Positions 1 to 38,912 of a stretch of 39,526 nucleotides of DNA are shown here, piece by piece. The stretch covers positions 1 to 39,526 of the forward strand of contig JAMQPK010000168.1 in assembly GCA_023717525.1 (NCBI GenBank), written 5' to 3'. The notes under the pieces are model-generated. The model did no database searches and had not been told where the DNA came from. It saw nothing but the letters and a program-made list of their open reading frames with translations. The DNA is from Vicinamibacterales bacterium. Lineage in GTDB: Bacteria > Acidobacteriota > Vicinamibacteria > Vicinamibacterales > JAMQPK01. The stretch's first letter is position 1. Each line of letters begins with the position of its first letter. The position numbers and the translations under genes were made by a program.

Positions 1-38
1 CACCGCAAGACCTCGTTTTCGCCTTTAGCTTTGACCAT
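1..38 (-). CDS. clpX: ATP-dependent Clp protease ATP-binding subunit ClpX, 5' fragment
   Basis: Only the first 12 codons are inside the window, reading M-V-K-A-K-G-E-N-E-V-L-R from an ATG eight nucleotides after the clpP stop codon. The length and charge of this stretch fit the N-terminal lead-in to the zinc-binding domain of ClpX, and clpP-clpX adjacency is the usual bacterial order. ClpX is the AAA+ unfoldase that feeds substrates to ClpP. The identification rests on gene order and this short start, so it is an inference; the Cys-rich zinc motif lies outside the window. Confidence 0.6.
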   Translation of the reverse strand, partial: MVKAKGENEVLR

Positions 39-4570: not shown

Positions 4571-4580
4571 GGAATTGACC

Positions 4581-6652: not shown

Positions 6653-6657
6653 CAACC

Positions 6658-23231: not shown

Positions 23232-23997
23232 TCTGCGTAGCGTCATCGAGGGCGGGCACTATGCGCGGAAGCAGATTTTCTCGCGCGACCGGCTGGTGTC
23301 GTGGAGCCACAGCCGGCGGTTCGCGATGGCCGTGTCGCTTGCGCGCCAGTTCTGCAACGGGCGAGTGCTGGACTACGGCTGTGGCGACGGAACGTTCCTC
23401 GCGTTGACGCTGTTGGCCGATGCTGCGCCGGCGCTGGCCGTTGGCGCCGAGCTTTCCGTCGAGACGGTCAGCGAATGCCGGCACCGCTATATCGGCGAGC
23501 CGCGGTTGCAGTTCGTGACGGTTGACGAGCTGGTGCGCGCCGAGCACGCGCATCGCTACGATGCCGTGTTTTGTATGGAAGTGTTCGAGCACGTGGTGAA
23601 TTGGGATCCTGAGCTCGCTCGCATCGAACGGTTGCTCGCGCCGGGAGGCAAACTCGTCGTCAGTGTGCCGGTCGAAACTGGATTGCCGCTGCTCGTGAAG
23701 CAGACCGTGCGACGAATCGCCGGCTGGCGCAAGATCGGTCACTATCCCGGGACGTCGCCCTACTCATTTCGCGAGCTGGCGGCCAGCCTGTTCGCGGGGA
23801 CGAAGCAGCACATGGAGCGTCCGGTGTTCTCGTACACGGGCGGCGAGCCGTTTCACGACCACAAAGGGTTCAATTGGATGGCGTTGAAGGAGCGTCTGGC
23901 ACGACAGTTCGATGTCGAACGCGTGCTGGCGAGTCCATTCAACTGGCTCGGGCCTCGTCTGGCCACGCAGGCCTGGTTCGTCCTCCGGCGCCGATGA
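23224..23997 (+). CDS. Class I SAM-dependent methyltransferase
   Basis: 257 residues from an ATG that overlaps the previous stop by 8 nt; a TTG lies one codon upstream. Motif I is V-L-D-Y-G-C-G-D-G at 48-56, with the acidic G-A-E-L-S-V-E-T near 77, D-A-V-F-C-M-E-V-F-E-H-V near 113-124 and L-A-P-G-G-K-L-V-V-S-V-P-V near 136-148. A C-terminal region rich in aromatic residues (F-S-Y-T-G-G-E-P-F-H-D-H-K-G-F-N-W) may bind the sugar acceptor. It is the third methyltransferase of the operon. Confidence 0.88.
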   Translation: MPDLRSVIEGGHYARKQIFSRDRLVSWSHSRRFAMAVSLARQFCNGRVLDYGCGDGTFLALTLLADAAPALAVGAELSVETVSECRHRYIGEPRLQFVTVDELVRAEHAHRYDAVFCMEVFEHVVNWDPELARIERLLAPGGKLVVSVPVETGLPLLVKQTVRRIAGWRKIGHYPGTSPYSFRELAASLFAGTKQHMERPVFSYTGGEPFHDHKGFNWMALKERLARQFDVERVLASPFNWLGPRLATQAWFVLRRR

Positions 23998-25139
23998 AAC
24001 CGCTGCGCATCGGCGTCGTCTGCGATCTCCGGGAGGAGGAATGGCACAGCATGGATTTGATTGCCGACATGCTGCTCGAGCATCTCCCGGCAGTCGCCGC
24101 AGGGGAAATCGAAGCGACTCGCCTTTGCCCGCCCATGACCCACCGCTGGAGCCGTCTGCCGCTCGTGGGGAGCGGCGCTCGCGCGCGGCTCGGCGATCGT
24201 CTGACCGGGCGCCTCTGGGACTACCCGCGCTGGCTCGCGCCACTGTCACGCGATTTCGATCTGTTCCACATCATCGATCACAGCTACGCGCATCTCGTGC
24301 GCGTGCTGCCGGCGCAACGAACGATGGTCAACTGCCACGACCTCGACGCGGTACAAGCGGCGCTGCCTGCAGGCGCTGCCCCGTTTGCGCCGTCTCGATT
24401 TCTCGCGTCCGGTATTCTCGACGGGCTCGCACGGGCCGCGCACGTGGCGTGCGTGAGCCATGCGACGAGCGATGAGCTTTTGGCGACGGGTCGCGTCACG
24501 CCCGACCGGGTCAGCGTCGTCCACGCAGGCGTTCACCCGAGTTGCGTGCCGGCGAGCGCCGGCGATCCGACACCCGGCGAACGGTTCCTCCTTCACGTCG
24601 GCAGCACCATTCCCCGCAAACGCATTGACCTGCTGTTGAGGATCTTCCAGGGCGTGCGGAGGAAGTTTCCGGAGCTGAAGCTCCGTCGAGTGGGGGGAGT
24701 GCTGACGCCCGAGCAGCGTGCGCTCGCTACTGAGTTGGGGGTCGCCGAGGCAATCCTCGAGACCGAACATCTCACGCGTCCCGCGCTCGCAGCGTGTTAT
24801 CGATCGGCCCGGCTCGTCGTGCTGCCATCGGAGAGGGAGGGCTTTGGACTTCCACTGGTGGAGGCGATGGCTTGCGGCACGCCCGTCGTGGCGAGCGACA
24901 TTCCCGCGCTGAAGGAAGTCGGTGGCTCAGCGGCGGTATTTTGTCCCGTCGGAGATATCGATCGATGGGTGGAGACAATTTCGGCGTTGCTCCGAGAGGA
25001 AGAGCACGAGCCGTCCGCCTTCGAGATCAGGCGTCAGGCGTCGATCGCGAATGCGGCGCGCTTCAACTGGAATTCGTACGCGCTCGAGATGACACGTCTC
25101 TATGTGTCGCTGCACGAGCGACAACTTGCGACCGCATGA
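23994..25139 (+). CDS. Glycosyltransferase family 4
   Basis: 381 residues, GT-B. Motifs are H-I-I-D-H-S-Y-A-H-L near 93-102, V-N-C-H-D-L-D-A-V, H-V-G-S-T-I-P-R-K-R-I-D near 202-213 and P-S-E-R-E-G-F-G-L-P-L-V-E-A-M-A-C-G with the paired Glu. The H-D-L-D and R-K-N/R-type signature resembles mannosyltransferases of the WbaZ/MtfB kind, but the donor is unproven. The ATG overlaps the previous stop (ATGA), and the next ATG overlaps its own stop. Confidence 0.9.
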   Translation: MKPLRIGVVCDLREEEWHSMDLIADMLLEHLPAVAAGEIEATRLCPPMTHRWSRLPLVGSGARARLGDRLTGRLWDYPRWLAPLSRDFDLFHIIDHSYAHLVRVLPAQRTMVNCHDLDAVQAALPAGAAPFAPSRFLASGILDGLARAAHVACVSHATSDELLATGRVTPDRVSVVHAGVHPSCVPASAGDPTPGERFLLHVGSTIPRKRIDLLLRIFQGVRRKFPELKLRRVGGVLTPEQRALATELGVAEAILETEHLTRPALAACYRSARLVVLPSEREGFGLPLVEAMACGTPVVASDIPALKEVGGSAAVFCPVGDIDRWVETISALLREEEHEPSAFEIRRQASIANAARFNWNSYALEMTRLYVSLHERQLATA

Positions 25140-26266
25140 AAGTCCTCCACCTTGGAAAATTCTATCCGCCGGCCAGGGGCGGTATCGAGACGATCCTGAA
25201 GCTCGTGTGCGATCGGACGTCGCCAGAGGTGCGCAATCGAGTGCTTGTCGCCAACCACAGGACGGGCGGCATGACAGAGCGTGACGGAGACACGGATGTC
25301 GTGCGCCTTTCCGTGTTGAAGAAGATCGGCGCAGTTGCGTTCTGCCCCGCGATGCCGGTGCGACTGGCTGGCGAGCGCGCGGACCTTATCGTGATTCACG
25401 AGCCGAATCCCATGGCTCTGGTCTCGTATTTCCTCGCGCGGCCGGCAGGGAAGCTCATCGTCTGGTTCCACAGCGAAGTCATTCGCCCGAGCTGGCTATA
25501 TCGGGTGTTCTACCGGCCCTTTCTGCACTTCGCGCTTTCACGTGCATCGCGAATTATCGTGGCCTCGCCCACGCTGGCAGACTCGACGCCCCAATTGCGG
25601 GGATGGCGCTCCAAGTGCGCGGTGATTCCGTATGGCATCGATGTCGACGACGACACCTCAACAGATGTGGCGCAGCAGGCCGACGCCATCGGCAGGCGTT
25701 ACGAACGGCCGATCGTGTTGTTTGTCGGCCGGCTCGTTAAGTACAAGGGAGTGGATGTCCTGCTCGAGGCGATGCGCGACCTGCCGGCCGTCGCGCTCAT
25801 CGTCGGCGATGGGCCTGAACGGGCGGCGCTGGCACGACAGGCGGAGGTGCTCGGTGTAGCCGATCGGTGCCGTTTTCTCGGGGAAGTGCCCGACGAGGAG
25901 CTCGCGGCACTCTATCGAGCCTGCGACATCTTCGTTCTGCCGTCTGTCACGCGGCAGGAGGCATTCGGTGTGGTGCAACTCGAAGCGATGGCGCGAGGCA
26001 AGGCGATCATCTGCACGGACCTGGGGACTGGCACGGGGTGGGTCAATCAGCACGGCGACACGGGCCTTGTGGTGCCTCCTCGAGACGCGTCCGCGCTGCA
26101 CGCGGCCATCGCCGAGCTGCTGGCCAATCCTGATCGACGTCACTTGTTCGGCGCGGCCGGCGCGAGGCGCGTGCGCGCAATATTCACCGTGGACCGGATG
26201 ATCGCGGCCGTCCTGTCGCTGTATCGCGATGTCATGGATGAGGATGAACGCAAAGCGGTTGCTTGA
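25136..26266 (+). CDS. Glycosyltransferase family 4
   Basis: 376 residues, GT-B. It has the complete GT4 set: H-L-G-K-F-Y-P-P-A-R-G-G-I-E-T near 5-19, V-I-P-Y-G-I-D near 164, L-F-V-G-R-L-V-K-Y-K-G-V-D near 197-209, V-G-D-G-P-E-R near 226, and R-Q-E-A-F-G-V-V-Q-L-E-A-M-A-R-G with the E-x7-E pair. It is one of the best-conserved glycosyltransferases in the locus and, placed just before the initiating transferase gene, may act early in assembly. Order in the operon is weak evidence for reaction order. Confidence 0.92.
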   Translation: MKVLHLGKFYPPARGGIETILKLVCDRTSPEVRNRVLVANHRTGGMTERDGDTDVVRLSVLKKIGAVAFCPAMPVRLAGERADLIVIHEPNPMALVSYFLARPAGKLIVWFHSEVIRPSWLYRVFYRPFLHFALSRASRIIVASPTLADSTPQLRGWRSKCAVIPYGIDVDDDTSTDVAQQADAIGRRYERPIVLFVGRLVKYKGVDVLLEAMRDLPAVALIVGDGPERAALARQAEVLGVADRCRFLGEVPDEELAALYRACDIFVLPSVTRQEAFGVVQLEAMARGKAIICTDLGTGTGWVNQHGDTGLVVPPRDASALHAAIAELLANPDRRHLFGAAGARRVRAIFTVDRMIAAVLSLYRDVMDEDERKAVA

Positions 26267-26852
26267 CGTGCTGCTGTCTGGCACCGGGCTCATCGCCTCG
26301 GCGCCTCTCTGGCTCGTCATCTCCGGGCTCATAAAGCTCGAGGATGGAGGCCCGATTTTCTTCTCCCAGGAACGCGTAGGAGAGCACGGCAGAGCATTTC
26401 TCGCGCTGAAATTCCGTTCGATGATCACAGACGCCGAAGCGCGCGTCGGGGCCATTCAGTCCGGGAAAAACGATCCGCGCGTGACCCGCGTAGGAAAGGT
26501 CCTGCGTGCGACCGCCATGGACGAGCTGCCGCAGCTGTGGAACATCTTCAGGGGCGACATGAGCTTCGTCGGCCCCCGGGCGCTGCGGCCCGGCGAAATC
26601 GAAGTGAACGGCCGCGGCACGCTCGAACGCCTGGAGGATGTCCCGGGATTCGAAGAACGCTGTGCCGTGCGTCCGGGGTTGACAGGCGTTGCGCAGATCT
26701 ACGCGCCGCGCGACATCATCCGGCGTCACAAGTTCCGCTACGACCGGCTGTACATCAGGCACCGGTCCTTCTGGCTCGACTTGAGACTGATTGCCTTGTC
26801 GTTCTGGATAACGTTCCGAGGTGCGTGGGAATCGCGGGACAGGAAGTTCTAG
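26229..26852 (+). CDS. Initiating polyprenyl-phosphate sugar-1-phosphate transferase (PglC/WcaJ catalytic domain)
   Basis: About 203-207 residues, a minimal monotopic phosphoglycosyl transferase without the extra N-terminal membrane helices of WbaP or WcaJ. One hydrophobic hairpin (residues 10-30 from the inner start) is followed by G-P-I-F-F-S-Q-E-R-V-G, L-K-F-R-S-M, the catalytic Asp-Glu in M-D-E-L-P-Q-L-W-N and G-D-M-S-F-V-G-P-R. It would transfer a sugar phosphate from a UDP-sugar to undecaprenyl phosphate, starting repeat-unit synthesis. Three in-frame ATGs (26229, 26238, 26244) are possible; family N-termini favour 26244. Confidence 0.92.
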   Translation: MSWMRMNAKRLLDVLLSGTGLIASAPLWLVISGLIKLEDGGPIFFSQERVGEHGRAFLALKFRSMITDAEARVGAIQSGKNDPRVTRVGKVLRATAMDELPQLWNIFRGDMSFVGPRALRPGEIEVNGRGTLERLEDVPGFEERCAVRPGLTGVAQIYAPRDIIRRHKFRYDRLYIRHRSFWLDLRLIALSFWITFRGAWESRDRKF

Positions 26853-26862
26853 ACCGATTAGA

Positions 26863-28029
26863 ATGCCCGCAATGCAAGACGTTGTGATCGTCGGCGGCGG
26901 CCCCGCGGGGCTCTACGCCGGTGCTCGTCTGGCCGGTGCCGGATTCGCCACCACGCTTCTCGAGGAGCACGCGACCGTCGGCGAGCCAGTCCACTGCACA
27001 GGTGTCCTTGCCGCAGAAGCCCTCGACGAATTTGGCCTTTCGCAGCGGTCGAAATTGAACGACCTGACAGCCGCTCGCTTCTGGTCACCCGCCGGTGCGG
27101 AAGTGCGCTACTCGAGCGGGCGCGTCGAGGCCGTGGTCGTCGATCGCAGCGCGTTCGATCGCGAACTGTCCGAGACTGCGCTTCGATCCGGCGTGTCGGT
27201 GGAGTCCGGCGCAAGAGCGAACACAATTCGGATCGACAGCACCGGCGTTACGGTCACGACCTCGTCGGGAGAAATTCGAGCTCGCGTCTGCGTCCTCGCC
27301 TGCGGCGCCAACTACTCGCTGCACCGGCAGGTCGGCCTTGGGATGCCACGGTTGTTCCTGAACACGGCCCAGGTCGAGCTGCCCGCGTGCCAGCTCGGCG
27401 ATGTCGAGCTCCACTTCGGCAGCGAGATTGCGCCAAAGGGGTTCGGATGGGTGGTTCCGGTCGAGCGTCCCGGCCAGGCGTGCGCGCGCGTCGGCGTCAT
27501 GTGCGAACACGATGCTGCACACTTCTTCGACCAGCTGACCAGCCGGATCGCGCTCCGATGGGGGATCAGCCGCGGCGATGCTCCGAGACCGCGACAGAAA
27601 ATCCTCCCTCTGGGACCTATCTCGCGGACCTACGACGATCGGCTGATCGCCATCGGCGATGCCGCCGGCCTTGTCAAGCCGACGACCGGTGGGGGCATCT
27701 ACTACAGCTTGATGAGCGCTGCGCTGGCCAGCGATGTGCTGAGCACGGCGCTGAAGGCCGACGATCTCTCAGCCGAGCGTCTGGCGCCGTACGAGCGCGG
27801 ATGGCGCGAGCGGCTTGCCGGCGAATTCCAGGCGCAGCTGAAACTGCGCCTCGTGGCGCATCGGATGAGCGACGCCGACATCGAACAACTCTTCGAATTG
27901 GCCCGCACCGACGGCGTGATGCCGATCGTGCGGCGCACGGCTTCCTTCAACAAACACCGCAAGCTGATTCTCGCCCTGCTGAAACACCCGCCTGTCAGAC
28001 AAATACTTCTTCGGCGACTCGCGTTCTAG
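26863..28029 (+). CDS. Geranylgeranyl reductase-like FAD-dependent oxidoreductase
   Basis: 388 residues. The FAD-binding Rossmann motif is V-I-V-G-G-G-P-A-G at 8-16, with a second flavin contact in L-I-A-I-G-D-A-A-G-L-V-K-P-T-T-G-G-G-I near 262-280, followed by the helical tail of the family. A-P-K-G-F-G-W-V-V-P-V corresponds to the P-x-x-Y-x-W-x-F-P substrate motif. Family members reduce isoprenoid double bonds in archaeal lipids, phytol, or polyprenols. Separated by only 10 nt from the initiating sugar transferase, it could modify the polyprenyl carrier or another lipid, but this is inference. Two ATGs nine bases apart compete as start. It is the last plus-strand gene of the operon. Confidence 0.82.
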   Translation: MPAMQDVVIVGGGPAGLYAGARLAGAGFATTLLEEHATVGEPVHCTGVLAAEALDEFGLSQRSKLNDLTAARFWSPAGAEVRYSSGRVEAVVVDRSAFDRELSETALRSGVSVESGARANTIRIDSTGVTVTTSSGEIRARVCVLACGANYSLHRQVGLGMPRLFLNTAQVELPACQLGDVELHFGSEIAPKGFGWVVPVERPGQACARVGVMCEHDAAHFFDQLTSRIALRWGISRGDAPRPRQKILPLGPISRTYDDRLIAIGDAAGLVKPTTGGGIYYSLMSAALASDVLSTALKADDLSAERLAPYERGWRERLAGEFQAQLKLRLVAHRMSDADIEQLFELARTDGVMPIVRRTASFNKHRKLILALLKHPPVRQILLRRLAF

Positions 28030-28103: not shown

Positions 28104-28821
28104 ACTTGTCCGAGTGCGGAGGAATCGGCCGGGCCGCGCGGGGGTTCATCGGCAGGACGTGCGCGTCGGGCTCACGTTTGAAGAACCAGTCCGCCAGGCG
28201 CAACACGCTGCCACGCTTGCTCGGCAGAATATCCTGGAGCTGGAGCAGTACCTCGATCACCTCGTCCAGGCGGTGGACGACGCCTATGCCGCGATCGGTG
28301 GCCTGCTGCTCCAGACCTGCATCGCCCATCCGCAGGATCAGGATGGCCTTGGTCTGCGAGGCTCCAACGACTTCCAGGCAGTTGAGCAGCTGATCATCGA
28401 TGATGAGATCGAGCCGGAGTGCGTTGGCAATCTCGCCGCGTGAACCGGGCACCGTGACGACCGCCGGCATGTAGTAGCCATAAGTTTCGAGCCACGCCTG
28501 ACTCTGGAACTGCACGGAGTCGCCGGCCGTCGGAATGCGCGAGGTGAGAAACGAGACCTCCCAGCGATAGCGCCGGGCCAGTTGATACAAGCGCGCAATC
28601 TGGGCGGGCTCGTAGGGTGCAAGGCCCACCCACCAGTTGGGCATCGCGGTAATCACCTGCCAGACGCGCTTGGCGTCAGCGGCCGAGACCGCATCAAAAT
28701 CCGGCATCGGAGAGCTGGGCCGCTGGATTGCCTGCTGGCCGAGCAGTTTGGCCGCCGCATCGAGGAACGCCGTGCGGAAGTCTGCGACCACGCCGTCGAG
28801 GTCAAAGCCGATTCTCAACAT
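28102..28821 (-). CDS. HAD-superfamily phosphatase, 5'-nucleotidase-like
   Basis: 239 residues. The N-terminal motif I is F-D-L-D-G-V-V-A-D (Asp7 nucleophile, Asp9 acid/base), followed by a helical cap and F-L-T-S-R (motif II) near 92-96. The acidic pair L-I-I-D-D-Q near 144-149 supplies motif III/IV metal ligands. The pattern D-x-D-G-V-V-x-D and L-T-S-R resembles 5'(3')-deoxyribonucleotidase-type (NT5C) HAD enzymes. It may be a nucleotide or sugar-phosphate phosphatase. It is coupled to the ligase gene by TGATG. Its connection to polysaccharide export is not evident. Confidence 0.78.
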   Translation of the reverse strand: MLRIGFDLDGVVADFRTAFLDAAAKLLGQQAIQRPSSPMPDFDAVSAADAKRVWQVITAMPNWWVGLAPYEPAQIARLYQLARRYRWEVSFLTSRIPTAGDSVQFQSQAWLETYGYYMPAVVTVPGSRGEIANALRLDLIIDDQLLNCLEVVGASQTKAILILRMGDAGLEQQATDRGIGVVHRLDEVIEVLLQLQDILPSKRGSVLRLADWFFKREPDAHVLPMNPRAARPIPPHSDK

Positions 28822-30170
28822 CAGGAACGCTCTTCGTGCCCTCGAGGAGACGGCGTGTAGGTGGCAATCGCGGCGAGCACTGCAAACAGCATAGCGTTAG
28901 CGGGCATTCGAAGTCCCGTTTCCCAAAGGCTCTGCGTCAGCGCGCCGGCAATGCCGGCTACCGCACCCGCGCGCACGAGATGGTTCGAGCTGGAGACGTC
29001 CTCGAGCCGCCGCTTCGAGAGCCGCACGAAGGTGCCAAGCGTGAGAATCACCGGCAAGCTCAACAACAGTCCTCCTTCAGCAGCCAATTGCAGGTAGTGG
29101 TTGTGGGCCTGGCCAATTGCGTATCCGGGTTCCGACGTCTGGTATCCGACGATGGCCTCGCCGTAGGTGCCGGCGCCCGTGCCGGTGATTCGAAAGTCGC
29201 TGATGAGCTGTTGCGTGTCTTTCCAGATCGCCCGGCGTCCACGTTCGCGGGCCACGGGCGCAAGTGTTTCATCGACGCGTCCCATCAAGGCACCGAAGTT
29301 GGCAAACGCCAGTACGACGGCAACGAGCATCGCTGCCTGAAACGCCATCCATCGGCGAGTCTCCTTCTGGCGGCGATGCGACAGGAGAGCACTGACCACG
29401 AATGCCGCGACCAGGCCGACGACCCCCGATCGCGACGTCGAGATCAGCACCGCAAGCGTCATCAGACACACCGATGTGGCCAGCCAGATTCTCATGGATC
29501 CGAGTTGTTCGGCCGCCGCAACGAGCCGCTGCGTCAATCGCTGGCCCTCGCGGGCGGCGGGTGCTCGCGCCAGCAGGTACCCGAAGACGAGGGGACACGC
29601 CATGATCGCCCAGGTTGCGAAATGGTTCCGGTTCACGAACGGACCGAACGGACGCGCGCCGGCGTCGAGGGGTCTCCAGATGCCGTAGAGCAGCTCCTTG
29701 CTCTGCGCGCGCTGAATGATGGCAGCCAGCGATGCCACCAGTCCCATGATTGCCACGCCACGGACGATTCGGCCAGTGCCGCCGGCGCTGCAGATCTGGC
29801 GGGACGACCAGAACAGCAGCGCGGCGGTGACGAAAATGCCGAGCGCGGCCCATGTATCCTGCGGACGGATGCTGATCGGGAGTCTCAACGCTGCGAGATC
29901 CGTCGTCGACATCAGCCACAGTGTGCTGCGAAGAGGCAGAGCCTGGGGATCGATGGTGTTGAGCAGGGCGGGGGGCAGGGGAACGACTTGCGCCGCGATG
30001 GTGAGCGCGGCGGTCGCCAGCATCCCCTCGATCAGGCCGAAACGGTCATTGCTTGCGTACCGCTGTCCCACTCGTGCGGACAGCGCAAGCGTGCCGCACG
30101 CGGCGGGAATCCAGACCCACGCGTACACGCCTCCCGCAAGGAACGTGACCCACGCGAGCAGGATCGCCAC
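28821..30170 (-). CDS. O-antigen ligase/polymerase family membrane protein (WaaL/Wzy-like)
   Basis: 449 residues from a GTG 28 nt after the BY-kinase stop; a longer frame begins inside the kinase gene, but its Thr/Ser-rich N-terminus is a shadow of the Tyr-rich kinase tail. About 10-12 hydrophobic segments are visible. The Wzy_C-type signature R-P-F-G-P-F-V-N-R-N-H-F-A-T-W near 175-190 and a soluble loop with G-T-G-A-G-T-Y-G-E-A... A-H-N-H-Y-L-Q-L-A-A-E-G-G near 330-365 mark the O-antigen ligase superfamily. The conserved H-N-x-Y-L-x-x-x-x-E-x-G region is where the catalytic His lies in WaaL. It may polymerise units or attach the glycan to an acceptor. Confidence 0.85.
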   Translation of the reverse strand: MAILLAWVTFLAGGVYAWVWIPAACGTLALSARVGQRYASNDRFGLIEGMLATAALTIAAQVVPLPPALLNTIDPQALPLRSTLWLMSTTDLAALRLPISIRPQDTWAALGIFVTAALLFWSSRQICSAGGTGRIVRGVAIMGLVASLAAIIQRAQSKELLYGIWRPLDAGARPFGPFVNRNHFATWAIMACPLVFGYLLARAPAAREGQRLTQRLVAAAEQLGSMRIWLATSVCLMTLAVLISTSRSGVVGLVAAFVVSALLSHRRQKETRRWMAFQAAMLVAVVLAFANFGALMGRVDETLAPVARERGRRAIWKDTQQLISDFRITGTGAGTYGEAIVGYQTSEPGYAIGQAHNHYLQLAAEGGLLLSLPVILTLGTFVRLSKRRLEDVSSSNHLVRAGAVAGIAGALTQSLWETGLRMPANAMLFAVLAAIATYTPSPRGHEERS

Positions 30171-30198
30171 GCCCGTGGCCGTCGCAGGACCATGTGGC

Positions 30199-32448
30199 CT
30201 AGGCAGCGGTCGATTTGACGTAGTAGTTCTTGTACTTGTAGCCGTAGTAACGCGAGTAATAGTACTTGTTGCGGACGATGTCAACGCGGTTGAGCACCGC
30301 GCCCAGCAGGTGGGGGCGGCTCGTGTTCAGGGTTTCGATCGCGCGCTCTGCGAGCCGGCGCTGCGTCATTTCCGAGCCGATGATGAACACCACGCCCGAG
30401 ACCCACGGCGCAATGATGACGGCGTCAGTGACGGCGAGGACTGGTGGCGTGTCGATCAACACCCAATCGAATGGCCCGTGCTGCACGTTCGAGATAAGCG
30501 TCTTCATCCGGTCGGAAGCCAGTAGTTCCGACGGGTTTGGCGGTGTCAGGCCGGCCGTCATCACCCAGAGGTTCTGCACGGCTGTCGGCTGAATCGCCTG
30601 GCGGGCCGTGGCCTGAGCTGTCAGCAGGTGCGACAGCCCGATGGTATTTTCGATACCGAGGGTTTTCGACACGCTGGGACGGCGCATGTCGGCGTCGATG
30701 AGCAGTACGCGCGACCCGCCGTAGGCGAGCGCAATCGCCATGTTGCAGGTGGTGGTCGTCTTACCCTCGACTGGCTGCGCGCTCGTCATCGCGATGACGC
30801 GCGTACCTTCACTGCCGCTGCTGAAGACCAGCGACGTGCGCAGCGCGCGGAACGCTTCGCCAAACTCGTGCGGCACTTCCCCCGACAGCAGCGGGTGATC
30901 GTTTCCCTTCACCGCGGGCACCAGCCCGAGGAAGGGAAGCTTCAGCCGGCGAGTGATGTCTTCCGGAGTCTTGACCGTGTCATCGAGGTAGTCAATCGCG
31001 AGCACCAGGCCGAGCGCCAGCAGCACGCCGGCGAGCGAGCCCAGCATCAAGTTGCGTTTCACATCGGGCGTGAACGGCGATCCGGGGGGAACCGCGCGAT
31101 CCATCAGCCGGACGTTGTTGCCGCCACTGTTGCTGACAATCTGCAGTTCGTTCTGACGCTGGAGCAGTTGCTCGTAGATCTGGCGGTTGCTTTGTGCTTC
31201 CCGCTCGAGCACCGTGTAGCCGACGCTCTTCCTGCTGAGGTCGGTCGCGACGCCCTTCTGCTCCTCCAGGGCGGACGACAGGCGCCGCTCCAGGGCGAGA
31301 GCCGTCTCGTAGTCGCTCTTCATCGTGTCGACCGCGGACGCCAGGGCCCGCTCGTAGTTCTTTGTGGTGTCCACGATGGCGTTTTCGTTCTCGATGACGA
31401 GCGGATTCTTCGGCCCATACCGCTCGTTCAGCTGGACCTTCTGGCGGTTCAGGTCGCTGAGCCGCGTGCGCAGCGTCTGCACATTCGGGTTGGCGCTGAC
31501 CGCAGGCGAATCCGCGAGGCCCGACAGCGACAGCGATTTCGCCTGGTTGTAGACCGATTCCTTCTGAATCCGTTCGTTGCGCGCTCGCAGGTAGCTGTCG
31601 TTCACCTGGGTGAGCGCCGATTCGACCGTGTTCTGACGCGAGTCCAGCGAGAGCGCGTTGTTGCTTGCGCGGTACTCGGCCATGGCGCGCTCGCCGTCTT
31701 CCACTTTCTTCCCTTGCTTGGCGATCTCGTCGGCGAGGAACGCGAGACTCTTGCGCGTCGCGTCATTGCGAATCTCAAGATTCTGCTTCACGAATTCTTC
31801 GACGAGCGTGTCCGCTGCGCGCGCCGCAAACTCCGCATTCGAAGAGGTCACCGAGGCGTTCACCAGGCGGGTTCCCAGCGCAGGCTCCACCGACACGGCA
31901 CCCTGGAATCCGTTGACCAGGTCGTTGACCGTTGGTTTGACCGCCATCGCGGCGGCTGGCGGCGCGGCGCCCGTTGCGGCCGCCACGGCGCCCAGCACCT
32001 GCTGCTTTGCCGAATGCAGCAGCGACGCGAGGCCTGTACGCTGGGGCCCCTGCCCGTTGAACTCTGGATAATTTTCAAGGTGCAGGCGCTGCACGACCTT
32101 GGTGCCGAGTTCGCGTCCAGTAAGAATGCGCAACTGCGTCTGGAAGTAGGCGTCCTGATCCTGATTGTTCGCGTCCTGGGCCGTGTTGAACCCGGTGACA
32201 TTCGATGCGCGGTCATCATCGATCATCACGCTCGTTGTTGCGCGGTACATCGGTATCGTCGTGAAGGTCCGCACGAGCACGCCGATCATCACCAGCAGGA
32301 ACACGGCGACGGCAAGATAGCGGTGCTTGTAGATCGCGTTCAGGCGATCGAGCAGATGCGCGTCCGAATCGGCCGGGAACAGGCTCTTTGGGGCAACGCT
32401 TTGAGGACGCGCGGGCGCGCCTGTAGCCGGTTTTGGGCGTGACTCCAT
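30199..32448 (-). CDS. Polysaccharide co-polymerase with BY-kinase (Wzc-like)
   Basis: 749 residues. The N-terminal Wzz domain has a membrane helix near 44-60. A long coiled-coil periplasmic region with the GNVR domain follows, then a second membrane helix near 465-485. The cytoplasmic tyrosine kinase has Walker A P-V-E-G-K-T-T-T near 555, Walker A' L-L-I-D-A-D-M-R-R-P near 582 and Walker B W-V-L-I-D-T-P-P near 680. The tail is a tyrosine cluster (about ten Tyr in the last 24 residues), the autophosphorylation site of such kinases. It controls chain length and coordinates with the Wza-like channel. The 22-nt element upstream resembles the one before the operon's first gene. Confidence 0.95.
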   Translation of the reverse strand: MESRPKPATGAPARPQSVAPKSLFPADSDAHLLDRLNAIYKHRYLAVAVFLLVMIGVLVRTFTTIPMYRATTSVMIDDDRASNVTGFNTAQDANNQDQDAYFQTQLRILTGRELGTKVVQRLHLENYPEFNGQGPQRTGLASLLHSAKQQVLGAVAAATGAAPPAAAMAVKPTVNDLVNGFQGAVSVEPALGTRLVNASVTSSNAEFAARAADTLVEEFVKQNLEIRNDATRKSLAFLADEIAKQGKKVEDGERAMAEYRASNNALSLDSRQNTVESALTQVNDSYLRARNERIQKESVYNQAKSLSLSGLADSPAVSANPNVQTLRTRLSDLNRQKVQLNERYGPKNPLVIENENAIVDTTKNYERALASAVDTMKSDYETALALERRLSSALEEQKGVATDLSRKSVGYTVLEREAQSNRQIYEQLLQRQNELQIVSNSGGNNVRLMDRAVPPGSPFTPDVKRNLMLGSLAGVLLALGLVLAIDYLDDTVKTPEDITRRLKLPFLGLVPAVKGNDHPLLSGEVPHEFGEAFRALRTSLVFSSGSEGTRVIAMTSAQPVEGKTTTTCNMAIALAYGGSRVLLIDADMRRPSVSKTLGIENTIGLSHLLTAQATARQAIQPTAVQNLWVMTAGLTPPNPSELLASDRMKTLISNVQHGPFDWVLIDTPPVLAVTDAVIIAPWVSGVVFIIGSEMTQRRLAERAIETLNTSRPHLLGAVLNRVDIVRNKYYYSRYYGYKYKNYYVKSTAA

Positions 32449-32565: not shown

Positions 32566-33042
32566 CTACTTTTCCGGGCTCGCCACCGGCAGGACGCCCG
32601 TCTGCAGCACCGTCACGCCGATGCCTGTGACTGCCGCCATGACCGAGGCCGCTGTATCGCCGAAGATCGCACCGCTTGCCGGAAGCTTTGCGGGAAGCGC
32701 CACGAGTGTTGCCGCTGCGTCGCCCGCTTGAGCGTTGACGACATCGCCGGCGGCGAGAGTGCGCCCGGTCTGGTCGGCGATCTCGGCGACGTACGGCGTA
32801 TCTGGCCGCACGACAAACGAAAACTCACCCTTGTTGTCCGACACCGTCACCTGCTCGATTTGCTTGGTCTGCAAGTTCCGCAGTCGGATCGTCGCGTCGG
32901 CCAGCGGCTTCTGGTTCGCATCGACCGCCCTGCCGTTGAGGAGGCTCTGCGTGCTTGACAGCTTCGGGGCGGGATTCTGCTGAGCCACAACCGTGGCGCT
33001 CAAGAGCGTGCCGATCATCGCCCACTTCAAGCTATTCATCAT
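32566..33042 (-). CDS. Secreted carboxypeptidase-regulatory-like (Ig-fold) protein
   Basis: 158 residues from ATG-ATG; longer in-frame starts extend into or past the divergent thrB promoter region and are unlikely. A signal peptide (M-N-S-L-K-W-A-M-I-G-T-L-L-S-A-T-V-V-A-Q) is followed by one beta-sandwich: L-N-G-R-A-V-D-A-N-Q-K-P-L-A-D-A-T-I-R-L-R-N through F-S-F-V-V-R-P-D-T-P-Y, typical of the carboxypeptidase regulatory-like (CarboxypepD_reg) domain. The C-terminus has a hydrophobic Ala/Gly-rich stretch. It is probably a surface or periplasmic accessory protein with no enzymatic motif. A 117-nt gap separates it from the BY-kinase gene. Confidence 0.75.
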   Translation of the reverse strand: MMNSLKWAMIGTLLSATVVAQQNPAPKLSSTQSLLNGRAVDANQKPLADATIRLRNLQTKQIEQVTVSDNKGEFSFVVRPDTPYVAEIADQTGRTLAAGDVVNAQAGDAAATLVALPAKLPASGAIFGDTAASVMAAVTGIGVTVLQTGVLPVASPEK

Positions 33043-33140
33043 AAAGTGCTCTCGCTCTTCAAAAACGCTTCGTGTGCCGTTTTGCAGCACCTGGTTTCGG
33101 ATTGGTAATCGATTCGCCGTGCTAATCTTCGTAACTTCAT

Positions 33141-34076
33141 ATGGCGCAACGTATTCGGGTCTTCGCACCAGCAACAGTAGCGAATCTCGGGCCAGGGTTT
33201 GATGTGCTCGGCCTGGCCCTCCCAAGGCCCGGCGACGAGCTCGAAGCCGAGCTGTCGGATCGCCCTGGCGTCGAGATCGTCGCGGTCACCGGAGACGGTG
33301 GTGTACTGAGCACCGATCCGGACAAGAACGTCGTCGGATGTGCGGCAAACGATGTGCTGAAACGTGCAGGCAGCCGCAGGGGCCTACGTCTATGGTTGCA
33401 CAAACAGATGCCGCTCGCGAGCGGATTGGGCAGTTCTGGCGCGAGCAGCGCCGCGGGCGCAGTGGCGGCCAACGAACTGCTCGGGCGCCCGCTGACGCCG
33501 AACGAGGTCGTCCTGAGCGCGATGGAAGGCGAGCGCGCCGCATCCGGCAGTCCGCACGCCGACAACGTGGCGCCGAGCGTGCTTGGCGGCATCGTGCTCG
33601 TCAGGAGCCTCGAGCCGCTCGAGGTGTTGTCGCTGCCCGTGCCGGACAGCCTGCACGTCGTCGTCGTTCATCCTCACTGCGAGGTCTCGACAGCCGACGC
33701 CCGCCGTCTTGTGAAGCAGGCTCATTTTCCGCTGAGCGCGATTGTGGCGAATCTGGGGAGCCTCGCCTCGTTTGTTCAGGCGCTCCATCGCGGCGACCTC
33801 GCCTTGCTTGGGCGGAGCGTCGACGACCAGTTGATCGAGCCGCTGCGCGCGCAGCTGATCCCGGGGTTCAGTGCGGTCAAAAAGGTCGCGATCAAGGCGG
33901 GCGCACTCGGCTGTTCGATCGCGGGATCCGGGCCGTCGGTGTTTGCGTTCACTGCCAGTCTCGCGTCAGCGCAGGACGTCGGCGCGGCGATGCAGTCCGC
34001 GTTTCGCACATCGGCCGGCCTGGAGAGCGATCTGTTCGCGGGCACGGTCAGCCACGAGGGCGCAAGAATTGTCTGA
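33141..34076 (+). CDS. thrB: Homoserine kinase
   Basis: 311 residues of the GHMP kinase family, phosphorylating homoserine in threonine synthesis. The N-terminal F-A-P-A-T-V-A-N-L-G-P-G-F-D-V-L-G and the ATP-binding loop P-L-A-S-G-L-G-S-S-G-A-S-S near 91-103 are diagnostic, and the C-terminal G-C-S-I-A-G-S-G-P-S-V-F-A-F is motif 3. The length is normal. No other threonine gene is in the window. Its stop is overlapped by 8 nt by the probable TTG start of the PqqD-like lasso gene, so the two are likely co-transcribed. Confidence 0.95.
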   Translation: MAQRIRVFAPATVANLGPGFDVLGLALPRPGDELEAELSDRPGVEIVAVTGDGGVLSTDPDKNVVGCAANDVLKRAGSRRGLRLWLHKQMPLASGLGSSGASSAAGAVAANELLGRPLTPNEVVLSAMEGERAASGSPHADNVAPSVLGGIVLVRSLEPLEVLSLPVPDSLHVVVVHPHCEVSTADARRLVKQAHFPLSAIVANLGSLASFVQALHRGDLALLGRSVDDQLIEPLRAQLIPGFSAVKKVAIKAGALGCSIAGSGPSVFAFTASLASAQDVGAAMQSAFRTSAGLESDLFAGTVSHEGARIV

Positions 34077-34365
34077 CGGTCAGCTCTCTGATACGGCGGT
34101 GGTCGTCATCGCTGGCGACGTGCTCTGGAGCGAGCTTGGATCGGAGCACATCCTGTTGAGCCTGCGCGATGGGACGTACTACGGTCTCGAAGAGGTCGGA
34201 GGCGAAATCTGGAGACTGTTGCAGACGCCCGTTCCGGTGACCGAGATCTGCCGGGCGCTCGTCGAGCAGTACGACGTCGATCCCGCGCGCTGCCGTCGCG
34301 ATGTCGTCAAACTGCTCGGAGATCTCGTCGGCCGGCAACTCGTGGAGATTCGCGATCCTGCATGA
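34069..34365 (+). CDS. PqqD-like lasso peptide leader-recognition protein (B1)
   Basis: 98 residues from TTG, overlapping the thrB stop by 8 nt; GAGGG lies 8 bases upstream. The winged-helix PqqD/RRE fold is supported by I-L-L-S-L-R-D-G-T-Y-Y-G-L-E-E-V-G-G-type residues near 30-45 and the helical C-terminal V-T-E-I-C-R-A-L-V-E-Q-Y-D-V-D. This domain binds RiPP leader peptides and passes them to the leader peptidase B2, whose gene follows with an ATGA overlap. The next start GTG (34099) would shorten the first strand. Role assigned from family and from the neighbouring B2 and C genes. Confidence 0.88.
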   Translation: MSDGQLSDTAVVVIAGDVLWSELGSEHILLSLRDGTYYGLEEVGGEIWRLLQTPVPVTEICRALVEQYDVDPARCRRDVVKLLGDLVGRQLVEIRDPA

Positions 34366-34745
34366 CGTCGACGTTCCTCCTGCTCGAATCGCTGGCGTTG
34401 ATGACCTCACTGAACCTGGGTGTGCGTTTGTTGCCGTTCACTGTCGTTCGGCGTGGGTTGGATCGCTGGGCCGGGTGCTCGCGGCGGAACACCGAAGACA
34501 TGGTCGACCAGATTGCCTGGGCTGTGCGGGCCATCGGACGCCGTATGCCCGGCGCCACATGTCTGCTCGAAGCGCTCGTGGCGCATTGCATGCTGCGGCG
34601 ATTTGGCTACGTACCTGCGTTGAGGATCGGCGTTCGGCGAGGTGCGTCTATGTCTATCGACGCGCACGCGTGGGTCGAGTGCGGGGGAGCGATCGTAATC
34701 GGGACGATCCCCGGACTGACGGAGTACGCCGTCCTCTCTCCCTAG
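34362..34745 (+). CDS. Transglutaminase-like lasso peptide leader peptidase (B2)
   Basis: 127 residues, the usual length for stand-alone B2. The catalytic Cys67 lies in P-G-A-T-C-L-L-E-A-L, the family C-L-x-x-A/S motif, and the His102 in D-A-H-A-W-V-E. A clear third (Asp) residue after the His is not obvious: the following segment is C-G-G-A-I-V-I-G-T-I-P-G-L-T-E-Y-A-V-L-S-P. It would cut the leader after the residue following the Thr at position -2. The 3' end overlaps the kinase gene on the other strand by 92 nt. Confidence 0.88.
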   Translation: MTSTFLLLESLALMTSLNLGVRLLPFTVVRRGLDRWAGCSRRNTEDMVDQIAWAVRAIGRRMPGATCLLEALVAHCMLRRFGYVPALRIGVRRGASMSIDAHAWVECGGAIVIGTIPGLTEYAVLSP

Positions 34746-35691
34746 GTTGTCGCACATCCTGCACCACGGCGTCGCAGACGGCACCGAGCGACGACAGCTT
34801 CCGCGGATACTCGAGCCGGCGCACAGGAACTTCCCGCACGAGGTTCGTGGCCATGGCGAACTGATTCTTGAGTCTCGCCTGATTGACCTGGATCAAATTG
34901 AACGCCGCCCGTGTGACCTCGAGGAATGCGTCCTGTCCGGTCACCGGTGTGATCCGGACGGCCGTCCTCGCACGCCGTTCGCGGTGCGCCGGATCCGGAA
35001 GGATGTAAAGCGACCGAAGCGGGACGGTCGGCGGGCCTGCCTCACTCTTGCTGAGGGGTAGTACCAGCTTCGACGTCCCCGGGTTCAACCGGCTGCCCGT
35101 CCCGCGCGCCAGCACCTTGCGGGCGACTGAAGGAAAGAGCTTCAGCCGCGGCGGCCCCGCGTGCGCGATCCACTTTCCATCCTGCCGTTCGAGTGCCAGC
35201 ACGTCGTCGGTCAGCAGCGCGTGTCCTCGCGCGACGAACGCCGCACCGATCGTCGACTTGCCGTACCCGCAGTCGCCGAGAAATGCCACGGCCTTGCCGT
35301 CGATGAGGACCGTCGTGGCGTGCAAGGGCTCATATCCGAACGCGAGCAGCGAGAACGAGAGGACCTGGCCCAGGAGATATGTGGAGAAGGATTCGTTGCT
35401 GGCCCTCCGCAGGCGCGCGTACGCAATGGTGCGAGCGTCCGGCGAAATCAGGAACTCGAAGAGTTCGGCCCACCGAAGATACGTGCGACCATCCGGCAGC
35501 GTGCCGCACACAAACCATTGCTGTGAGGCTGCTGGGAGCTGCAGGGCCTGTCGCGCGGTTTCAAACTGTGCAGGTTGTCCGGCAAGCAATCGAACGTCGG
35601 GCGGGCGAGACGGCGAACATGCTGGGCACGGGAGCGGGATGGGACTCTCGACTGTCAGGCCGTACAGACGATAGCGCGCGGCGCCGCTCAC
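34654..35691 (-). CDS. HPr-kinase-like kinase of the lasso cluster
   Basis: 345 residues. A Walker A loop, G-D-C-G-Y-G-K-S-T at 139-147, and an acidic T-D-D-V-L-A-L near 161-167 are as in the HprK catalytic core. N-terminal residues are variable, as in kinases encoded beside lasso precursors. Relatives from paeninodin-type clusters phosphorylate the precursor's C-terminal Ser. The last 35 residues are Arg/Pro-rich, overlap the B2 gene and probably extend beyond the fold. The start GTG overlaps the precursor stop (GTGA), so kinase synthesis should be coupled to precursor synthesis. Confidence 0.85.
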   Translation of the reverse strand: MSGAARYRLYGLTVESPIPLPCPACSPSRPPDVRLLAGQPAQFETARQALQLPAASQQWFVCGTLPDGRTYLRWAELFEFLISPDARTIAYARLRRASNESFSTYLLGQVLSFSLLAFGYEPLHATTVLIDGKAVAFLGDCGYGKSTIGAAFVARGHALLTDDVLALERQDGKWIAHAGPPRLKLFPSVARKVLARGTGSRLNPGTSKLVLPLSKSEAGPPTVPLRSLYILPDPAHRERRARTAVRITPVTGQDAFLEVTRAAFNLIQVNQARLKNQFAMATNLVREVPVRRLEYPRKLSSLGAVCDAVVQDVRQPRERGRRTPSVRGSSRLRSLPRTRPTRARR

Positions 35692-35849
35692 GCCTGCGGA
35701 AAGTTGTTTCTGGTATTCGGCTTTCCGGAGCCGTCGTTCTTGTTACTGCCTTTTGACGCCGTGAGCTTCCGGAAATTCCCGTGAACCTTGAGCTCAGGCG
35801 TGCGATAGGGGCGCTTCTGTTGCGACGCTGCCTTGGGCTTTTGCTTCAT
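35688..35849 (-). CDS. Lasso peptide precursor (A), 53 residues
   Basis: Starts at M-K-Q-K-P-K with GGAAGA just upstream. The leader carries the lasso motif Y-R-T-P-E-L-K-V-H-G-N-F-R-K-L-T, matching Y-x-x-P-x-L-x-x-x-G and the conserved Thr at -2. Cleavage after L-T-A leaves a 22-residue core beginning S1-K2-G3-S4-N5-K6-N7-D8-G9; an isopeptide bond from the Ser1 amine to the Asp8 side chain gives an 8-residue ring. The tail is hydrophilic, with Arg16 and Phe19 as possible plugs, and ends in Ala. The gene overlaps the 3' end of the cyclase gene by 56 nt in another frame and the kinase start by 4. A longer ATG exists (35915) but precedes the family-like start. Confidence 0.85.
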   Translation of the reverse strand: MKQKPKAASQQKRPYRTPELKVHGNFRKLTASKGSNKNDGSGKPNTRNNFPQA

Positions 35850-37758
35850 TCTTCCAGAATACCCGAAGCCACATTTCCAGGCCATAGGTATCCCCGAGGT
35901 TCCAACTATTGACACAGTCGGCAGCGTTCAGTCCCGCTGCGAGTCGAGCGAGCTCTGGCGCGAGTCGTTCGGCGTCGAGATAGCCGAATCTGACGCCGAG
36001 GCAGTCGGGCGTGAGTGTTTGAAGGATGACGGCGGCGTCGTGGCTCAGCCCCATGTTGACGAAGGGACTGAAGTCAGATTTCCACGTGCGCGCACGAATC
36101 GAATCGGGCAGCACTCCGCGCATGCCTTCACGCAGCAGCGCGCGCGGGACGCCGTTGTACGCGTGGACGTCGCCTGGGATGGACATGATGAAGGCGATGA
36201 GATCTCGATCGAGAAATGGGTACGCGAGATCGAGCCCATGCAGCGCGCCGACTTTGGCGTTCCACTCCATGCACTGCACCTGGTACTTCGAGCGCGCTTC
36301 GATGTAGACGGCCTGCGCGTGCGCCGAGTGGAACGCGCGTTCGAAGGTGGCGAGCCGATATCGATGACGCAACGCGCTTTTGAGAAAGGCAGCGGCGAAC
36401 CAATCCTTCGTTCTCCGGCGATCGAGCAGTTGGAGGCGCAGCCACTTCAGAGGTGGCGCGATGGACCGCGGCACGTGATAGCGCACGGCATCGACGAGCA
36501 ACAGGCGGCGGCGGCGTGATGCCTCCTGGGAACCGAAGTAGCGCGCGTACTCGCGTGTGTGGCGCCAGATGGTGGAAACGGCACCGCGGCGGAGCAGGTC
36601 GATCAGGTACGCCGAGGAGAACAGCATCTGATCGCCCCAGTGTCCCGAGAGCATCGATCGCGCGCCCGTCGCGGCAGCGCGCGTGTGCAGCTCCCGTGTT
36701 ACGCCCCACATATAGTCGACGAACGGTGCTTCGATGGCGGTGATCTGCGCCTCGGCGCCATCGACCAGGCCGATGAGCGGTTCGATCGGAAACCGGTCGA
36801 ATGACACACCGAATTGCGCCTCGATATCGCGCAGGTAGTGCTGTTCGTCGGTCTCGCGGCGGTTCGAAACATACGAGATCCCGCGCACGCCCGGTACCGG
36901 CACTGCCCCTGAACGCCGCAGCGTCTCGGCCTCGCAGAAGATCGACGAGGAATCCAGGCCGCCACTCACAGACACGGCAACCGGATAGCGGGATCGCGTG
37001 CGGCGCTTCACTGCCTCGGCGAATCGTTCGCGAAATGCGTCGACGTACTCGTCGAACGACCGGAGTCGCAATGCGGTGTGCGTGTCGAAATCCCAGTACC
37101 GGCGGCGCGTCAGTCTCTCTGGCGTCACGATCACGAGATGAGCGGGCACGACCGACGAGATGCCCTTGAAGCAGGTGAGGTCCTGGTGATCGAGCGGCCG
37201 CGATCCCACGAGCATGAAGTCGGCAACGCCTTCATCGTCGGGGTGCGCCGTGATCTCCGGGTGGGCGAGCAGCCCTTTGATCTCGGATGCAAACGCACAG
37301 AAGGATCGGCTGTGAAAGTAGTAGAGAGGACGCACCCCGATCGCGTCCCGCGCCAGCACCAATCGCTGGCGGCGCGAATCGAAGATCGCCAGCGCAAAGT
37401 CCCCGCTCAGCCGCTCCGCAAATCCCTCGTCAAAGGCTTCGTAGGCCGCGAGCACGAGGCGCGCATCGCTGAGCGACGCGTGGAGGCCGAGCGCACCGAT
37501 GAGTTCCGCGCGATTGTCGAGGCGGCCATCCATCACGAGCATGGCGCTCTGGCCGGCGTGTTCGATGGCGAGAGGCTGATGCTCGCCGTGCTCTTCGGGG
37601 GTCACCCAGGAATGCTGGCAGGCGAAGCCGACGGCGCCCTCGATGCGCATCGCCTCGCCGTCTCGTCCCCGGTGGCGCAGCCGGCCGCTCATCGCCGCCA
37701 CGGCGTCGCGAGCCATCGGACGTCGGTCGAGATTCCACGCGCCCGCAATCCCGTTCAT
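35794..37758 (-). CDS. Lasso peptide cyclase (C), asparagine synthetase-like
   Basis: 654 residues. The N-terminal glutaminase-like domain begins M-N-G-I-A-G-A-W, without the Cys2 nucleophile of true AsnB, so it cannot hydrolyse glutamine; this is characteristic of lasso cyclases. The synthetase domain has the ATP PPi loop S-G-G-L-D-S-S-S at 265-272. The enzyme adenylates the ring Asp or Glu and closes the macrolactam. The ATG is only 29 nt from the divergent nucleotidyltransferase start. Its 3' end contains the start of the precursor gene. Confidence 0.93.
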   Translation of the reverse strand: MNGIAGAWNLDRRPMARDAVAAMSGRLRHRGRDGEAMRIEGAVGFACQHSWVTPEEHGEHQPLAIEHAGQSAMLVMDGRLDNRAELIGALGLHASLSDARLVLAAYEAFDEGFAERLSGDFALAIFDSRRQRLVLARDAIGVRPLYYFHSRSFCAFASEIKGLLAHPEITAHPDDEGVADFMLVGSRPLDHQDLTCFKGISSVVPAHLVIVTPERLTRRRYWDFDTHTALRLRSFDEYVDAFRERFAEAVKRRTRSRYPVAVSVSGGLDSSSIFCEAETLRRSGAVPVPGVRGISYVSNRRETDEQHYLRDIEAQFGVSFDRFPIEPLIGLVDGAEAQITAIEAPFVDYMWGVTRELHTRAAATGARSMLSGHWGDQMLFSSAYLIDLLRRGAVSTIWRHTREYARYFGSQEASRRRRLLLVDAVRYHVPRSIAPPLKWLRLQLLDRRRTKDWFAAAFLKSALRHRYRLATFERAFHSAHAQAVYIEARSKYQVQCMEWNAKVGALHGLDLAYPFLDRDLIAFIMSIPGDVHAYNGVPRALLREGMRGVLPDSIRARTWKSDFSPFVNMGLSHDAAVILQTLTPDCLGVRFGYLDAERLAPELARLAAGLNAADCVNSWNLGDTYGLEMWLRVFWKNEAKAQGSVATEAPLSHA

Positions 37759-37766
37759 TTTGATCG

Positions 37767-37778
37767 GCAGTATACTGC
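37767..37778. promoter_or_regulatory. 12-bp palindrome with overlapping divergent -10 boxes
   Basis: GCAGTATACTGC is a perfect palindrome at the centre of the 29-nt space between the cyclase and nucleotidyltransferase starts. On each strand it contains TATACT about 10-11 nt before the start codon, so both transcripts could be leaderless or nearly so. The -35 regions are weak. It could also be an operator that shuts both promoters at once. Confidence 0.55.
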
Positions 37779-37787
37779 GCCAAATTC

Positions 37788-38912
37788 GTGGCTTCGCTCG
37801 GTCGCTTTCCCGCCCTGGCCGCGTTTCTCGCCGGCTGTTCCGCCAGCTGGCCGGATCTGAACATCACACCGGACGAGCTCATCGCGTTGTGCGAGAGCGA
37901 GCAGCTCGTGCCGCTGCTGTATCAGCGGATGGTGGAATCCAGTTTTGCCGATGGCTGGCCTTCGTCGCTTCGCGACACGCTGTCCGATAGCGCGCGTCGA
38001 AGCGCCGGCGAGGAGCTGTTGCGGGGTGCGGAAGCGCGCGCGGTGATCGACGCCCTCACCCGCGCCGGAGTTCAGCCGATCCTGATCAAAGGCACGCCCC
38101 TCGCGTACGGTTGGTACGCCACTCCGGCATCGCGGCCCCGGGATGACACCGACGTGCTCATCCCTTCCACCCAGGTCGCGAGCGCCCGTGACGTGTTTGC
38201 ATCGCTCGGCTACATGACGACCGTGCATTGCAGCGAGCTGTTTTCGCAGTTCGAAGTGCAGAAGACGGATCGCTTCGGCATGACGCACGCCTTCGACGTC
38301 CACTGGCGCATCAGCACCCAGCCCGTGTTTGCCGAGTTGCTGACGTACGAGGAACTGCTGCCGGAAACCGTCCCCGTGCCTGCGCTCGGCGCATCAGCCA
38401 TCGCGCCGCGAGCAATCGATGCGCTGCTCCTGGCATGCGTACACCCGGTGATGCATCACCGCAGCAGCGAGCGGGTACTTTGGATCTACGACATCCATCT
38501 CCTGGCCTCTGCGCTGTCCGCGCCCGAGTTCGACGCCTTTGCACGGCTGGCGCAACGGAAGAAGGTTGCCGCGATTTGCACGCACGGGCTGCGGCTTGCA
38601 CAAGTGATGTTCGGCACGTCCGTGCCCGTCTCCGTCACAGCGGCGCTCTCGCGCGCCGAATCGCCTGAACCGTCGGCAGAGTATCTGGCGTCCGATAGAA
38701 GGTGGCATCACGAGCTGATCGCGAGTGTTCGCGCACTGCCGTCGCTCGGCGAGCGAATCCATCTGCTGCGGGGCGTCCTGTTTCCGAGTCCCGGCTACAT
38801 GCTCGGCGCCTACGGACTCCGCGATAAACCTTTGGGTCCGTGGATCTTGCCAGCGCTCTACGTGCACCGCAATCTGCGCGGCGCCTGGAAGATGATGTCG
38901 GGAAGAAAGTGA
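37788..38912 (+). CDS. Nucleotidyltransferase family protein of the lasso cluster
   Basis: 374 residues from GTG. The motif I-L-I-K-G-T-P-L-A-Y-G-W-Y near 98-110 followed by R-P-R-D-D-T-D-V-L-I at 116-125, with its metal-binding Asp pair, is typical of the uncharacterised nucleotidyltransferase family (NTP_transf_5) seen in HprK-type lasso clusters. H-A-F-D-V-H-W-R near 166 and a helical C-terminal half follow. It may nucleotidylate the peptide or another metabolite; the substrate is unknown. It is divergent from the cyclase gene and 18 nt before the sulfite/nitrite reductase gene. Confidence 0.85.
   Translation: MASLGRFPALAAFLAGCSASWPDLNITPDELIALCESEQLVPLLYQRMVESSFADGWPSSLRDTLSDSARRSAGEELLRGAEARAVIDALTRAGVQPILIKGTPLAYGWYATPASRPRDDTDVLIPSTQVASARDVFASLGYMTTVHCSELFSQFEVQKTDRFGMTHAFDVHWRISTQPVFAELLTYEELLPETVPVPALGASAIAPRAIDALLLACVHPVMHHRSSERVLWIYDIHLLASALSAPEFDAFARLAQRKKVAAICTHGLRLAQVMFGTSVPVSVTAALSRAESPEPSAEYLASDRRWHHELIASVRALPSLGERIHLLRGVLFPSPGYMLGAYGLRDKPLGPWILPALYVHRNLRGAWKMMSGRK

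Follow-up and report, generated by a model that had tools for sequence, protein, structure and literature searches.

The described gene clusters closest to the one reported here are of two kinds. In the Bsf cluster of Bradymonas sediminis (PMC10368454), B1, B2, the cyclase C, an HprK-like kinase K and a nucleotidyltransferase N are encoded by separate genes, and the kinase BsfK, whose catalytic positions have been tested by mutation, phosphorylates Ser3 of the precursor BsfA with strong help from B1 (PMC10368454). The paeninodin and pseudomycoidin clusters (viz. those of PadeK, PsmK and PsmN; PMC9266682) likewise contain a tailoring kinase gene and split B1 and B2, their kinases mark a C-terminal Ser, and in the case of pseudomycoidin PsmN adds a hexose to the phosphate, either directly or via a nucleotidyl intermediate (PMC9266682). 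Parts of this gene set are also found in two other systems. The LPP clusters of Bacilli, which are often located beside capsular polysaccharide loci, contain K, N and an RRE module but no cyclase, and their leader is removed by a SipW-like signal peptidase (PMC13381572), whereas the HPr-rel-A system (TIGR04352/TIGR04353) combines an HprK-like kinase with a PqqD-like protein. As characterised Bsf and paeninodin/pseudomycoidin clusters exist, the cluster described below, which is present in a DNA stretch of 39,526 nucleotides (referred to as the window), belongs to a known class, and it is an additional case of this class with these clusters as its precedents.

Gene content and organization of the cluster

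Profile searches identify six lasso genes at positions 34069-38912 of the window (Table 1). A sequence-only reading had described a complete cluster at this place in a probable acidobacterium, and the six genes, their families and the similarity to relatives are all in accordance with that description. The genes thrB, B1 and B2 are on the plus strand, C, A and K follow in that order on the minus strand, and N is divergent from C and is succeeded by a NirA-like gene. The precursor gene A shares 56 nt with the 3' end of C and 4 nt (GTGA) with the start of K. B1 has a TTG start and overlaps the thrB stop by 8 nt (34069-34076); due to this location of its start inside the last codons of the homoserine kinase gene, B1 may be translated together with a housekeeping gene. 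In the genome to which the window belongs (3.78 Mb draft), a single match to B2 was found. The lasso genes include no recognisable dedicated ABC exporter, and no transporter was assigned.

Table 1. Features of the lasso cluster and of the adjoining polysaccharide locus in the window
Feature	Position	Strand	Basis
Polysaccharide export protein, many glycosyltransferases, Wzt/ABC2 exporter	4575..26266	+	
Initiating sugar transferase (PF02397) and FAD-dependent enzyme; locus markers in relatives	26229..28029	+	
Wzy/O-antigen-ligase-like polymerase	28821..30284	-	PF04932 E=4e-20
Wzc-like polysaccharide chain-length determinant/tyrosine autokinase	30199..32448	-	TIGR01007 189 bits vs cutoff 108
Small CarboxypepD_reg-like protein beside Wzc, neighbour kept in relatives	32566..33165	-	
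B1, PqqD-like leader-binding protein (RRE)	34069..34365	+	PF05402 E=2e-20, above cutoff; NF033536 lasso_PqqD_Bac 75.6 bits, just under cutoff 80
B2, leader peptidase (transglutaminase-like)	34362..34745	+	NF033537 lasso_biosyn_B2 88 bits vs cutoff 33
K, HprK-like peptide kinase	34654..35691	-	TIGR04352/TIGR00679 core match
A, 53-residue precursor, MKQKPKAASQQKRPYRTPELKVHGNFRKLTA / SKGSNKNDGSGKPNTRNNFPQA	35688..35849	-	NF033521; homologues beside C and K in relatives
Predicted core SKGSNKNDGSGKPNTRNNFPQA, 22 residues + stop	35688..35756	-	Thr(-2) register, single acidic residue
C, lasso cyclase (AsnB-like)	35794..37758	-	NF033535 best family, E=2e-101; 341 bits vs cutoff 525
N, PF14907 nucleotidyltransferase-like protein	37788..38912	+	PF14907 E=6e-34

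The enzyme assignments proposed from the sequence are borne out by these searches, with the NCBIfam cutoffs for B1, K and C not being reached by the window proteins. B1, which had been read as a PqqD-like leader binder, is related to lasso chaperones of solved structure (9x90, E=7e-15; TbiB1 5v1u, E=3e-10), and B2 contains both Cys67 and His102 that had been pointed out. In B2 of the window a Gly is present 12 residues after this His, where other B2 proteins have Asp/Glu; the idea that this loss of a catalytic Asp is an oddity was rejected, as Gly is common to many B2 proteins of kinase-type clusters. The cyclase begins with MNG, thus lacking Cys2 in favour of Asn2 as had been noted, and it contains the ATP loop SGGLDSS at position 265. 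For N, the proposed NTP_transf_5 family is supported by the match to PF14907, and its resemblance to PsmN is one of annotation. Searches by sequence found no relatives of solved structure for either B2 or N. The kinase matches the HprK family in its core only, and the window lies far under the HPr-rel-A cutoffs (TIGR04352, 39 vs 200 bits; TIGR04353, 15 vs 35 bits).

B1, B2 and C together define a lasso pathway, and the genes seen in the window are very probably best explained as a lasso-peptide cluster bearing a kinase and a nucleotidyltransferase. The product predicted from this complete-looking gene set is probably a small lasso peptide, which is likely to be phosphorylated as well.

The precursor and its predicted core

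The precursor scores 19.5 bits against NF033521 (lasso_leader_L3; cutoff 19), and its leader of the YxxPxL type is in register, with Tyr(-17), Pro(-14), Leu(-12) and Thr(-2). Asp8, located within the 7-9 range for the Asp/Glu of lasso precursors, is the sole acidic residue of the core and a Ser1-Asp8 ring is therefore predicted; the leader motif, Thr(-2), the hydrophilic 22-residue core and this ring prediction, all put forward from the sequence beforehand, hold in view of the register and the lone acidic residue. The calculated mass of the core product is 2299.11 Da, or 2379.07 Da with one phosphate. A core starting at Gly3, with a six-residue ring to the Asp, was considered and rejected because Thr(-2) would be lost and lasso rings of six residues are not known to occur.

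A precursor frame arisen by chance, with the enzymes acting on another peptide, is most improbable. Although the overlap of 56 nt with the end of C could be taken in this sense, homologous frames occur at the same place in relatives, the leader register is exact, and the precursor profile also matched frames (<1e-5) in genomes outside the set from which it was built. The frame is thus conserved in close relatives, a lack of which had been named earlier as a possible refutation.

A further alternative, which we consider quite unlikely, is that the product is unthreaded, viz. a branched-cyclic or linear phosphorylated peptide similar to the LPPs of Bacilli. The presence of K, N and B1 is common to the LPP clusters (PMC13381572) and bulky plug residues are few in the tail of the core (Lys12, Arg16, Phe19); however, the window encodes a B2 of the lasso type together with a lasso-type cyclase, both of which are missing from LPP clusters, and the Thr(-2)/Asp8 register is seen in its precursor.

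Relatives of the cluster

The best relative is G017, which has all six genes (identity: C 55%, K 49%, N 49%, B1 44%, B2 42%); its precursor is homologous to that of the window, is located between C and K and likewise overlaps the end of C. Precursor homologues adjoin homologous C and K genes in G017, G188, Methylomirabilota L101 and Desulfobaccales L102, while in G183 one is found beside C. Precursor, kinase and cyclase thus recur together in relatives of three phyla, and due to this recurrence the cluster is more than a chance assemblage. The cores of this precursor type (SKGSNKND, TKGGNRAD, TKGGNHQD, AKGGPNVD and AKGGTLAD) share the pattern [STA]-K-G-[GS]-x-x-x-D. The earlier remark that Ser is less common than Gly as residue 1 needs a shift of emphasis, since within this lineage Ser, Thr or Ala in first position is normal. 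The leader of G183 must be two residues longer. In the precursor at L081:2709-2873, two extra residues are present between the Thr and the TKGG core (ITKVT-TKGGNHQD), and Tyr shifts to -19 if the eight-residue ring is kept.

In the cyclase tree, the window groups with G017 (SH-aLRT 99) within a six-row set (99) that includes G183, L101 and L102, and hence the family spans phyla. The contig scan yielded 80 loci, about 14 of them with B1/B2; because it was driven by generic AsnB motifs, most of the 80 are ordinary amidotransferases. At L101:1949-6543 one precursor is flanked by two tandem cyclases; genes close by encode an ABC exporter, a methyltransferase and an XrtA/PEP-CTERM-type ATPase (below cutoff).

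Comparison with the Bsf and paeninodin-type systems and the candidate phosphosite

The Bsf cluster and the window have in common, besides their separate genes, a YxxPxL leader, a hydrophilic core, a 1-8 ring, the lack of a C-terminal Ser and identical kinase-motif spacing, and the BsfA core (GTSGNEVD-GSTPADRGNNPGD) resembles that of the window. However, BsfA has Ile(-2), Gly1 and a phosphorylated Ser3, whereas the window precursor has Thr(-2), Ser1 and Gly3, so that the combination of Ile/Val(-2) and Ser/Thr3 characteristic of the Bsf subfamily is not seen. B1, B2 and K are detectably related in sequence to BsfB1, BsfB2 and BsfK (E=2e-11, 7e-6 and 2e-14, respectively). The window shares with pseudomycoidin the gene for N, but the leader is of the WxxP type in paeninodins (PMC13381572) and YxxP in the window, and the window core, ending in Gln-Ala, lacks the C-terminal Ser that is the paeninodin-type phosphosite.

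All eight BsfK catalytic positions are kept in K with identical spacing (H124; G139, G142, G144, K145 and S146 of the P-loop GxxGxGKS; and the Asp-Asp pair D162, D163), so that the HprK-like kinase recognised earlier has an intact catalytic motif in BsfK register. In the related cores, [ST][RK] is found in the tail at Asp+5..8 in 11 of 11 cases, compared to 1.7 expected upon shuffling each tail, a value which is to be read as a description and not as a strict test, because the motif was chosen by eye once the sequences had been viewed, and because the peptides are related to one another. In the window this motif is Thr15-Arg16. In view of this conserved motif, and of the core having neither a C-terminal Ser nor Ser3, Thr15 is most likely the best candidate for the phosphosite, with Ser4 and Ser1 as alternatives; the assignment is uncertain because position 3 is Gly and because K and BsfK share only about 26% identity across 192 residues. 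Even so, this family of cores gives a concrete prediction of a kinase site other than a C-terminal Ser.

From the genes, motifs, conservation and neighbourhood observed, we infer the enzymatic steps and phosphosite, as well as the export and function, of the product. B1 would bind the YxxPxL leader and K, aided by B1, would phosphorylate a hydroxyl residue of the core (most likely Thr15, possibly Ser4 or Ser1), upon which N may place a nucleotidyl or hexosyl group on the phosphate. B2 would cleave after Ala(-1), and C would link Ser1 to Asp8 around the tail, giving a hydrophilic 22-residue lasso.

Association with a polysaccharide locus

The lasso cluster abuts a Wzy/Wzc polysaccharide locus (window 4575-32448), and this adjacency, which was absent from the sequence-only reading, is the more interesting feature of the window. 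In G017, G005 and G088 a locus of this kind also contains the lasso genes, flanked by Wzy on one side and by the FAD-enzyme/sugar-transferase pair on the other, and in G038 this place is occupied by B2, with A, K and C on another contig. A search of the order with the FAD enzyme matched 51 of 161 genomes, and B1 or B2 was seen in 23 of 53 stretches around this enzyme and the known clusters, many of which end at contig ends. A cyclase and a leader-bearing precursor near polysaccharide genes (i.e. with Wzc, Wzy or the FAD/sugar-transferase pair no more than about 15 kb away on their contig) were found in about 15 genomes (viz. the window, G017, G005, G088, G371, G093, G071, G077, G492, G034, G053, G075, G073, G023 and G222; G009 and G058 are less certain members), a count which overstates the rate, as the locus itself was in part what had been searched for. 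In a location-blind search of the order for B2, 6 of 17 places (14 of the 17 were examined) were near polysaccharide genes, against our own estimate of roughly 1-2% for random places. The chance of this result is about 7e-7 at an assumed 2% per place and about 1e-4 at 5%, figures that assume an independence which does not hold. Further, with labels based on the contents of the fetched stretches, the polysaccharide-linked state must have changed at least 6 times along well-supported branches of the cyclase tree, so that several cyclase lineages are present in one kind of locus.

These observations bear on whether the lasso cluster is a self-contained, ordinary one (antimicrobial, signalling or other) whose adjacency to polysaccharide genes reflects only a shared genomic niche, an explanation to which we give a little less than an even chance. 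It is in agreement with the separation of the two by thrB in the window, with the location of several lasso loci of the order elsewhere, and with the closest cyclases outside the order (L101 and L102), whose surroundings show no recognisable Wzc/Wzy locus. However, the 6 of 17 places in the location-blind search and the presence of cyclases of several separate lineages in the locus argue against a mere sharing of niche. Since relatives repeatedly carry such clusters in or next to this type of locus, the product may well have a role in surface-polysaccharide or biofilm biology and not that of a classical antibiotic; this part is much less certain than the lasso assignment itself, its chances being about even. 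A more specific proposal is that the kinase-type lasso peptides of this acidobacterial order are working parts of the polysaccharide locus, where the threaded peptide would be phosphorylated, linked to a sugar by N, and attached to or controlling the polymer, and where the CFI-box fusions noted below would be lasso-capped proteins for the same purpose; as a whole this proposal is unlikely to be correct.

In the literature searched, a parallel for a link of lasso peptides with polysaccharides was found only for Bacilli, in which phosphorylated lasso peptides are often near capsular polysaccharide loci and their role is called unknown (PMC13381572, 2026). The same link in a distant phylum, involving cyclases of several lineages, leads to a testable surface-polysaccharide hypothesis.

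Fused and other precursors in related loci

In three of the related loci (L063:5156-5617, L064:2000-2398 and L062:8050-8475; G088, G038 and G005) the lasso precursors continue past the core into a domain of 85-100 residues that begins with CWIAEALYG or similar and is CFI-box-like. NF041770 (CFI_box_CTERM) matches the G038 fusion at E=2e-6, which is below its cutoff, and the term CFI-box gave no match in the literature search. G005 also has a second, unfused precursor. A second family of precursors is found in the same kind of polysaccharide locus (L269:12220, L272:6722, L277:14396, L099:11062, L285:13119-13775, L315:13195 and L321 near 620-830), mostly with a [ST]GG[ST]T..E ring and a Cys-Leu at the C-terminus; this Cys occupies the position at which the Cys of the CFI-box starts in the fused precursors. 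Lastly, in two genomes peptides with a WxxP leader and ...NKLTVVGDPAEPGK.PGPD, and with no obvious ring (L296:3652-3831 and L305:4086-4304), are located between an AsnB-like protein and a kinase inside the polysaccharide locus.
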